Below are positions 14,121 through 15,986 of a stretch of 50,778 nt of DNA, piece by piece; within the stretch, counting starts at the first letter, position 1, and each line of letters begins with the position of its first letter. Under the pieces are notes generated by a model. That model was given only the letters and a program-made list of their open reading frames with translations, was not told the origin of the DNA and searched no databases. The stretch is taken from positions 1 through 50,778 of the IMG/VR virus record IMGVR_UViG_3300025892_000031, one strand, 5' to 3'. This stretch comes from a virus. Position numbers and translations under genes: made by a program.

Positions 14121-14149
14121 ATTATATCACTAAATTGCATTTGAGTCAA
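14121..14149 (-). promoter_or_regulatory. Sigma70-type early promoter of the replisome operon
   Basis: Minus-strand TTGACT (14149-14144), 17-nt spacer, TATAAT (14126-14121). AATATT (6 nt) separates it from the ATG at 14114. The -35 box lies inside the 3' end of the peroxiredoxin gene. Confidence 0.85.
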
Positions 14150-14654
14150 CAGCTATTGATTGTAAATATTTCAATACATTCTCTGGCGAAGATACACTAT
14201 ATGGATCTCCATCATTGTTATCAACCTTACCAGGTTCCTCAAACATAACTTCAACGGTACCATCATTTATAATTGCAGCGTAACGCCATGATCTCATACC
14301 AAAACCACAATCGGTTTTTTCTACAAGCATATCTACTTGATCTGTAAAGTCACCATTACCATCAGGTATCACTTTAACTTTTTCTAATTTTTGATTAGCA
14401 GCCCAAGCGTTCATCACATAAGAATCATTTATTGATAAACAATAAATTTCATCTATACCATGTTGTTTAAATACGTCATGTAATTTTTCGTAACCAGGTA
14501 GTTGTTGATTTGAACATGTTGGAGTAAATGCACCAGGTAGAGCAAACAATATTACTCGCTTACCTTTGAAGTAGTCATCTGTACTGATATTCTTCCATTC
14601 ACCTAATGATCTAGTTCTAAAACTAATATCAGGTATTCTATCACCTTGTTTCAT
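14130..14654 (-). CDS. Prx5-type peroxiredoxin
   Basis: Thiol peroxidase that reduces hydrogen peroxide and organic peroxides. The active-site segment is LPGAFTPTCS with peroxidatic Cys47; the family-typical GFGMRSWRYA segment supplies the conserved Arg. Further Cys residues in EIYCLSIN and KTDCGFG could serve as resolving Cys. Its 174 aa are typical of Prx5/AhpE-like enzymes. A sigma70-type promoter and AGGAGAAA precede it, so it is an early gene. As an auxiliary metabolic gene it probably protects the infected cell from oxidative stress (inference). Confidence 0.93.
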   Translation of the reverse strand: MKQGDRIPDISFRTRSLGEWKNISTDDYFKGKRVILFALPGAFTPTCSNQQLPGYEKLHDVFKQHGIDEIYCLSINDSYVMNAWAANQKLEKVKVIPDGNGDFTDQVDMLVEKTDCGFGMRSWRYAAIINDGTVEVMFEEPGKVDNNDGDPYSVSSPENVLKYLQSIAVDSNAI

Positions 14655-14681: not shown

Positions 14682-14710
14682 ATTATACACGAATCACGTC
14701 AGTTTGTCAA
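14682..14710 (-). promoter_or_regulatory. Sigma70-type early promoter of peroxiredoxin
   Basis: Minus-strand TTGACA (14710-14705), 17-nt spacer, TATAAT (14687-14682), followed by AGGAGAAA and the ATG at 14654. Confidence 0.85.
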
Positions 14711-14719
14711 GCGTCTGTA

Positions 14720-14929
14720 CTACCAATTATTTGTAGATTTAGTTGAATTGTGTCCTAAGATTTTACCTTTGTTAGCACCCTCTTTTACTGTGTAACCTGA
14801 AGTGCCTCCACCATTTATATTTACTTCACTTCTACTAAACATTAATGATTTTGCTTTGTCAGCAATCTTTTTTGCTTTATTTCTTGCTTTAAATAAATGG
14901 GTAAATCTACTTTCACTTAAAAAGCTCAT
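14720..14929 (-). CDS. Riboswitch-controlled small peptide, 69 aa
   Basis: Unrecognised small basic protein: a Lys/Arg/Ala-rich helical first half (FKARNKAKKIADKAKSLMF) and a Gly/Ser/Asn-rich second half (NINGGGTSGYT). AAAGGAGG lies 7 nt upstream of the ATG. Its leader holds the probable glutamine riboswitch at 14950-15002, and the late box at 15008-15015 would start transcription at the aptamer edge. Downstream-peptide glutamine riboswitches are known to precede short ORFs in cyanobacteria and marine phage sequences. Function unknown; a glutamine-responsive late regulator or inhibitor is inference. Confidence 0.7.
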   Translation of the reverse strand: MSFLSESRFTHLFKARNKAKKIADKAKSLMFSRSEVNINGGGTSGYTVKEGANKGKILGHNSTKSTNNW

Positions 14930-14949
14930 ACACCCTCCTTTTATAGTTA

Positions 14950-15002
14950 GGTGCGTTCCTTCCCTTAATAGGTACTTCCGTCTATTGAATAGATGAACGA
15001 TA
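14950..15002 (-). ncRNA. Probable glutamine riboswitch (glnA / Downstream-peptide class)
   Basis: On the minus strand the order is: ATCGTTC, hairpin TCTAT-TCA-ATAGA, then GACGGAAGTA, a CCT-ATTA-AGG hairpin, and GAAGGAACGCAC. CGTTC and GAACG close a three-way junction (P1). The conserved GACGGAAGTA and GAAGGAACGC strings are the hallmark of the glutamine-binding glnA and Downstream-peptide aptamers (recalled, not searched). CACC after P1 can pair with GGTG just after the Shine-Dalgarno sequence at about 14935, a possible expression platform acting on translation. Confidence 0.8.
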
Positions 15003-15007
15003 TTAAG

Positions 15008-15015
15008 TATTTATA
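15008..15015 (-). promoter_or_regulatory. T4-type late promoter box for the riboswitch transcript
   Basis: Minus-strand TATAAATA. The usual late start distance puts +1 at about 15002, the first base of the riboswitch. The box overlaps the 3' arm of the hairpin at 15013-15045. Confidence 0.7.
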
Positions 15016-15052: not shown

Positions 15053-15505
15053 TTATGTAATAGATATAGTCTTTAGTTTTTTAGCATCTGGAATAATCTT
15101 CTCCATAGACACTTTCAATAGGCCGTCTTTTAACTCGGCACCTTTAACTTCAACATCATCAGCGATAGTAAACGATCTTTTAAAGTATCTTTTTGAGATA
15201 CCTTTATGAATCATTGCCTGATCTTTTGGTTTATCAGCACCAACTGAATCTACAGCAACAGATGAGACTTTAGACTCGATAGTTAGTATATTGTTCTCAC
15301 TAGTGATCTCAATATCTTTTTTATTGAAACCTGCAAGAGCAATCTCAATATCGAATTTATGAGTTCCTGTCTTAACTAGATTGTATGGTGGATAATTAAC
15401 CGTAGGGTGATCAAACATAGATTCGAAATGATCGAACATGTCGTCAAATCCTACTGATAATGGTCTTAATTGATTGAAAATAGATAGTGCTTTTGTATTG
15501 GTCAT
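15053..15505 (-). CDS. hsp20: Small heat shock protein Hsp20
   Basis: Alpha-crystallin-domain holdase chaperone. The domain spans about 38-145: PPYNLVKTGTHKFDIEIALAGF, then DIEITSENNILTIES, SKRYFKRSFTIADDVEVKGAELKDGLLKVSMEKI; the C-terminus ends KKLKTISIT with an I-x-I-like motif. Its 150 aa fit IbpA-like proteins. AAAAGGAGG lies 5 nt upstream of the ATG but can be masked by a ROSE-like hairpin (see 15507-15557). Promoter sequences of both early and late type overlap upstream. Hsp20 genes are common in T4-like marine phages; a role in virion assembly or host-protein maintenance is inference. Confidence 0.95.
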   Translation of the reverse strand: MTNTKALSIFNQLRPLSVGFDDMFDHFESMFDHPTVNYPPYNLVKTGTHKFDIEIALAGFNKKDIEITSENNILTIESKVSSVAVDSVGADKPKDQAMIHKGISKRYFKRSFTIADDVEVKGAELKDGLLKVSMEKIIPDAKKLKTISIT

Positions 15506-15561: not shown

Positions 15562-15591
15562 ATTATATAATAATTATTTATATAATTTCAA
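15562..15591 (-). promoter_or_regulatory. Early promoter of hsp20
   Basis: Minus-strand TTGAAA (15591-15586), 18-nt spacer, TATAAT (15567-15562). The -35 reads CTTGAAA, which equals the heat-shock sigma32 -35 consensus, but the -10 is sigma70-like, not CCCCAT-like. Confidence 0.65.
15575..15582 (-). promoter_or_regulatory. T4-type late promoter box inside the hsp20 promoter
   Basis: Minus-strand TATAAATA lies in the spacer of the sigma70-type promoter, so hsp20 could be read in both early and late infection. The surroundings are very AT-rich, which weakens the call. Confidence 0.45.
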
Positions 15592-15743: not shown

Positions 15744-15986
15744 TTATATTTTTTTTACTTTTGTACCTTTTATCCACTTATAACCAAGAATTTCATCATT
15801 AGTTTTCTGTGCTTTTCTAATAATTTTTGATCGTTCTTTGGCCTTTTCTCTTTTAATTTCAGAGGGTTTAGAAAAATATTGTTTAGCTCTTAACTCTTTA
15901 ACTATTCCTGCTTTTTGCACTTTCTTTTTAAGAACACGTAAAGCCTTTTCTAAATTGTCACCTCTTACTTCTACTGTAATTGACAT
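15744..15986 (-). CDS. rpsU: Ribosomal protein bS21
   Basis: Small-subunit ribosomal protein that sits near the mRNA exit and anti-Shine-Dalgarno region and helps initiation. The sequence is a full bS21: MSITVEVRGDNLEKALRVLK, then KKVQKAGIVKELRAKQYFSK, PSEIKREKAKERSKIIRKAQ. Its 80 aa are slightly longer than the E. coli protein (71 aa), with a short extension ending KGTKVKKI. Phage-encoded bS21 is known from pelagiphage and other virus genomes and can exchange into host ribosomes. It follows the 108-aa gene by 3 nt. It may steer host ribosomes to phage mRNAs, including leaderless ones (inference). Confidence 0.95.
   Translation of the reverse strand: MSITVEVRGDNLEKALRVLKKKVQKAGIVKELRAKQYFSKPSEIKREKAKERSKIIRKAQKTNDEILGYKWIKGTKVKKI

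Follow-up and report, generated by a model that had tools for sequence, protein, structure and literature searches.

A putative glutamine-I riboswitch as the complete 5' leader of a late small-protein gene in a pelagimyophage

We report that the leader of a 69-aa late gene, carried by a virus record of 50,778 bases with T4-like late genes (the whole stretch analysed, hereafter the window), is by sequence a glutamine-I riboswitch with putative ligand binding, and that it makes up the complete 5' leader of a monocistronic gene. In the reading that we favor, to which we assign a probability of about 0.7, this pelagimyophage riboswitch would be the full 5' UTR of a late single-gene message and would act as an ON switch for a small effector of a host type. 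The whole analysis is sequence-based, and the direction of control is proposed in part by analogy with cyanobacteria.

The nearest named relatives of the window phage are the pelagimyophages, as judged by the identity of its clamp loader (79% to Pelagibacter phage Mosig, 67% to HTVC008M) and of its terminase (69% to HTVC008M). The phage also encodes a ribosomal protein S21 (15744-15986; Pfam 60.2 bits, cut-off 27), which Mosig likewise carries in a comparable location.

A glutamine-I aptamer at the predicted start of a late message

A cmscan of the whole window gave a single RF01739 match in the record, at 14950-15001 on the minus strand, which covers all 53 model positions (1-53) and scores 59.4 bits (E 1.1e-10; gathering cut-off 35). 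A covariance search with the Rfam glnA model had been suggested by a sequence-only reading of this DNA, and the match it yields is full length and well above the cut-off. That reading had seen in the leader the signature of both glnA and Downstream-peptide aptamers; the glnA (glutamine-I) part is borne out, and the Downstream-peptide (glutamine-II, RF01704) part fails, with no match even at E 1. Glutamine-II RNAs resemble the window leader in sensing glutamine and in heading tiny genes, but they fold differently, as a pseudoknot. The architecture that had been described, two boxes and two small hairpins within a CGTTC/GAACG stem, is correct in every sequence detail. On the minus strand, the closing stem P1 joins CGTTC (14999-14995) to GAACG (14958-14954), P2 is the hairpin TCTAT-TCA-ATAGA (14981-14993), and P3 is the hairpin CCT-ATTA-AGG (14963-14972). 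The two conserved stretches are GACGGAAGTA (14982-14973), inside P1, and GAAGGAACGC (14962-14953); the conserved GACGGAAGUA and GAAGGAACG of the glutamine-I class are present, as is the C after P1. P1, P2 and P3 covary in a set of 22 phage leaders that spans several gene families, with 96.6% of cells paired and 41 double-change cells versus 12.9 in shuffles. The junction bases are fixed across phage aptamers while the stems vary with compensation, and covariation among phage relatives backs the three-way junction P1-P3 of the class.

The T4-type late promoter box TATAAATA lies where it had been claimed, at 15008-15015 on the minus strand, and is one of ten copies in the window, all on this gene-bearing strand. 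We take T4 late promoter geometry to put +1 at about 15002 when counted from the box (15015-15008), that is, one base ahead of the first aptamer base (15001), and we infer that the predicted late transcript begins at about that base. The window shows the motif as well as the close spacing between box and aptamer, and both recur elsewhere. Among the matches listed, xTAAATA ends at most 20 nt before P1 in 61 of 128 phage aptamers, nearly always at a distance of 5-12 nt (mode 6), and it is close before P1 in all 20 members of the window's gene family. The controls gave five matches in the stretch further upstream and 9 among 144 aptamers of bacterial genomes. This spacing suggests that late messages begin right at the aptamer in about half of the phage cases and throughout the window's family.

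The small-protein gene itself occupies 14720-14929 on the minus strand (ATG at 14929-14927). The next gene, encoding a peroxiredoxin (14130-14654), has its own perfect sigma-70 promoter just past the 69-aa frame (TTGACA-17-TATAAT, 14682-14710, minus strand, 12/12 consensus matches), so that the small-protein gene forms its own unit. The other flank is a small heat-shock protein gene (Hsp20, 15053-15505), which has a TATAAATA box upstream at 15575-15582, as the peroxiredoxin gene has its sigma-70 promoter (14710-14682).

Small proteins behind the aptamer in phages and in SAR11

Glutamine riboswitches have already been published in Melnitz, in Pelagibacter phage Mosig and in cyanophages (PMC9004378, PMC9964418, PMC9602691). 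The sequence-only reading had considered a glutamine-tuned phage gene unusual; given these precedents the window is a further example, and it is the gene behind the riboswitch that is the surprise. Among the matches listed, 116 of the 124 frames that follow an aptamer in phages are no longer than 75 aa, compared with 47 of 109 in bacterial genomes, where many of the remaining frames resemble, by eye, ammonium transporters, glutamine synthetase or glutamate synthase. The phage products fall into several unrelated families and are mostly basic. One of these families matches DUF4278 (37.5 bits, cut-off 25.3), a domain of the N-terminal part of IF17 (PMC6316151). In the cultured phage Mosig, the riboswitch precedes Mosig_00116 (51 aa) at about 92.2 kb on the minus strand, 19 kb from ssrA. 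The Melnitz riboswitch was described as part of ssrA (PMC9004378), and this published link may deserve a second look. The Melnitz and Mosig riboswitches belong to the same class as ours and to T4-like phages of streamlined marine bacteria (PMC9004378), but the former was published as controlling ssrA and the latter precedes Mosig_00116, whereas the window carries another small-protein family.

Outside phages, glutamine aptamers, often in tandem, were seen at several marine loci (L147, L172, L174 and similar), with ammonium-transporter-like genes following them in alphaproteobacteria; in marine gammaproteobacteria they precede glutamine-synthetase-like genes. These occurrences indicate that the glutamine-I class is not confined to cyanobacteria. 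The closest characterized parallel is gifB of Synechocystis (RF01739), which shares with the window the aptamer fold and conserved bases, the position in the 5' leader, a helix after P1 over the ribosome site, and a small product. It differs in that the window is a phage genome with a T4-type late promoter starting at the aptamer, and in that the window product has no detectable relation to IF17/DUF4278.

The 69-aa product is a small basic protein matching phrog_32989 (E 3.7e-9). With at least 480 viral relatives and a median dN/dS of 0.25 over 921 pairs of its family, it is a real coding sequence. Searches of Pfam and NCBIfam returned no match for it, and we detected neither homology to the glutamine synthetase-inactivating factors IF7/IF17 (the gifA/gifB products) nor a DUF4278 domain (Pfam). 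AlphaFold, given 46 viral sequences and one from SAR11, predicted a helix plus two strands with poor confidence (pLDDT 66, pTM 0.31). We also considered gp41 of HTVC011P as a homologue and set it aside, since the match spans only 26 residues; it has no aptamer.

An alignment of the leader across related phages, another check suggested earlier, showed the aptamer directly upstream in 15 of the 15 viral relatives with enough upstream sequence among the matches listed. In a larger viral set, where the samples are not random and viral counts are lower bounds, at least 28 of 76 relatives (about a third) lack the aptamer by pattern, and three of these 28 retain a variant or decayed copy. Glutamine control is therefore not needed everywhere by the small protein. 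At two loci (L278, L279), the aptamer is reduced to its 3' half (GAAGGAACGCACC...GGAGGGTG) before a window-type gene, which indicates a decayed or rearranged riboswitch.

The protein family is also chromosomal. A profile search found it in 196 of 247 SAR11-family genomes, with one match per genome among the matches listed; the genomes sampled, one for each species, may be incomplete, and the E-values of our home-made models are rough. The gene does not encode just any late peptide but the phage counterpart of a small protein found in SAR11 chromosomes. RF01739 itself occurs in only 2 of the 247 genomes, in both cases directly upstream of the window-type gene. One of the two loci lies on a 263-kb contig among genes that are cellular by eye, including a tRNA-modification enzyme and a DEAD-box helicase. 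In the protein tree, these two copies group with phage sequences (97/84) and most other SAR11 copies are separate. Leader type follows the tree, with 8 changes against 56 in shuffles, the tree being a coarse one built on 65 columns. The simplest reading of these sequences would be that phage and host have exchanged the riboswitch together with its gene. Some distant SAR11 homologues (L372-L379) lack the structured leader described below, and most of them closely follow a gene whose end resembles an iron-sulfur insertion protein (NERCGCGESF).

A tandem-pseudoknot leader in SAR11

The other close SAR11 copies carry a different structured leader, composed of two H-type pseudoknots in tandem. In each unit, a hairpin ends in CAU...AUG (or GAU...AUC) and its loop pairs with a strand past an A-rich stretch. 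We found this leader upstream of the homologue at loci L348, L350, L355, L366 and L368 and at about 40 more in SAR11, and both units could be parsed in 39 of 54 distinct leaders. Pairing in unit 1 is kept in 97.7% of cells versus 79.1% in shuffles; the short form pairs in 98.3% of cells, with every slid register at 32% or less; and in unit 2 the third pair of the pseudoknot occurs as UA (18), CG (8), AU (3) and GC (10). With this strong covariation, the tandem-pseudoknot leader is close to certain to be a real structured RNA. It matched no Rfam 15 family at E 1 or 5, nor Downstream-peptide (RF01704) at the same thresholds. We did not find it among the P. ubique candidates in the parts consulted of Meyer 2009 (PMC2704228), or among the HIMB5 motifs in the portion of the text of PMC6429828 that was available. 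Like SAM-II, SAM-V and other H-type pseudoknot riboswitches, it consists of small H-type pseudoknots in a 5' leader; it differs from SAM-II and SAM-V in its two tandem units before tiny protein genes and in having no such Rfam match.

Covariance models (E at most 1e-4) placed the leader in 76 of 247 SAR11 genomes, one in each. Seventy of the 76 precede the window-type gene and six precede another gene of 48 aa, whose product shares homology with the Mosig_00116 family of phages (E between about 6e-10 and 2e-11, against 0.05 for the best shuffle). The window-type protein and the Mosig_00116/48-aa family are two unrelated small proteins, and both are headed by the glutamine riboswitch in phages and by the tandem pseudoknot in SAR11; no SAR11 genome among the matches listed has both genes. 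Since the two proteins are unrelated yet have both regulators in common, simple autoregulation is disfavored and a shared signal favored; in phages that signal would be glutamine. On the grounds that both families carry both leaders, that no sampled genome has both genes and that all 76 leaders precede one or the other, we tentatively suggest that the SAR11 leader is a riboswitch class absent from Rfam whose signal is glutamine or some close proxy of nitrogen status, an idea that we hold possible but rather less probable than its opposite; glutamine as the ligand is a guess. If it is true, two unrelated RNAs, one in SAR11 and one in its phages, would sense a single signal and control the same tiny proteins.

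In three other alphaproteobacterial genomes (L493, L494, L495), the tandem-pseudoknot leader heads a third gene, unrelated to the other two and about 41-54 aa long (MLLTKNIIKFNN...). An exact scan for the commonest SAR11 pseudoknot sequence found none in viral contigs, and in the cultured phages HTVC103P, HTVC104P and HTVC023P the second small-protein family is present and neither leader was found.

Direction of control and alternative readings

The 20 nt between the aptamer and the ATG contain the Shine-Dalgarno sequence GGAGG (14934-14938, minus strand), and the window leader includes an expression platform of the kind found in glutamine-I riboswitches. An anti-Shine-Dalgarno hairpin (14931-14953, minus strand) pairs CACCT (14953-14949) with GGGTG (14935-14931) and takes in the last two G of the GGAGG; the corresponding GCACCU/GGGUGU hairpin is the best-supported element of the unconstrained fold (centroid). 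The pairing of CACC after P1 with GGTG near the Shine-Dalgarno sequence, proposed earlier, is upheld by compensatory changes across phage families, whose leaders show CACCU/GGGUG, CACUU/AAGUG, CACUC/GAGUG, CAUCU/AGAUG, CAAUCU/AGAUUG and other variants. In 85 distinct leaders, the helix scores 10.9; exchanging 5' strands among gene families lowers the score to 7.8 +/- 0.2. By counts that ignore kinship, 95.2% of cells are paired, three pairs show double changes, none of 500 shuffles reaches the covariation score and slid registers come nowhere close. The exact helix is mostly missing from the DUF4278-type phage leaders.

The direction of control may be read from a single base. The position just 3' of P1 (14953, minus strand) is C in 128 of 129 phage aptamers among the matches listed and in all 126 bacterial ones (254 of 255 overall). 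In the solved glutamine riboswitch, G23 moves into P1 and forms the linchpin pair with C60 solely in the glutamine-bound state (PMC11477058), and we infer that the C after P1 corresponds to C60. If so, glutamine binding and masking of the Shine-Dalgarno sequence would compete for one base, which predicts an ON switch. Cyanobacterial leaders have a CGCCUC/GAGGCG helix at the same position after P1, and glutamine-I and glutamine-II riboswitches both activate expression with glutamine in cyanobacteria (review PMC6316151). A translational ON switch in the phage is therefore likely by analogy. The proposed direction rests on this analogy plus one shared nucleotide, and the helix could form from its second pair onward.

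In the mechanism that we envisage, late transcription would start at about the first aptamer base and, with little glutamine, CACCU would fold onto GGGUG and hide the ribosome-binding site. Plentiful glutamine would dock in the three-way junction and draw the C that follows P1 into pairing with the junction G; the first anti-Shine-Dalgarno pair would be lost, the ribosome site freed and translation turned on. The product would be a phage-borne version of the small basic protein made from the SAR11 chromosome. Its likeliest role, by analogy with cyanobacterial IF17, whose gene (gifB) uses the same riboswitch class (PMC6316151), would be that of a small effector that, under glutamine-replete conditions, tunes the nitrogen metabolism or the growth of the host.

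The same parts could be wired the other way, with the ligand stabilizing P1 and the CACC/GGUG hairpin stacking on it, so that high glutamine represses and the protein is made when glutamine is low. Stacking is plausible, as the helix begins exactly where P1 ends and fold prediction puts the hairpin beside P1; we nevertheless consider such an OFF switch unlikely, because both cyanobacterial classes activate with glutamine (PMC6316151), cyanobacterial leaders have a helix in the same position, and the invariant C would serve both P1 capping and the helix. It is very improbable that the aptamer is a relic, kept by descent after glutamine sensing was lost while the hairpin alone fixes a constant level of translation: the phages that have the gene but no aptamer and the two loci retaining a 3' half fit this idea, but the junction bases do not vary and the stems show compensatory changes, and the aptamer precedes many unrelated small genes.

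A further question concerns the product rather than the switch. The small protein might be an ordinary late phage part, for virion or lysis, which the riboswitch merely times to amino-acid supply, and the late promoter as well as the partial homologue near the packaging genes of HTVC011P point that way. A chromosomal homologue in most sampled SAR11 genomes, often behind a dedicated RNA leader that would fit a virion part poorly, speaks against it, and we judge this explanation improbable, if not negligibly so. We retain the ON switch driving a small host-type effector as the best explanation.

What is known of phage riboswitches consists mostly of sequence hits, and SAR11 is among the most abundant bacterial groups of the ocean. 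Here the promoter, the aptamer, the switch helix and the product together make up one compact unit, which recurs in many marine phages and whose gene is nearly always tiny, and the link to SAR11 makes this unit testable, as the protein is conserved in host chromosomes. The SAR11 host leader is, from its sequences, a strong candidate regulatory RNA of a kind not yet described. If both RNAs sense nitrogen status, phages and their hosts would have coupled nitrogen sensing to the same small effectors through different RNAs, which would bear on how phages handle nitrogen limitation.
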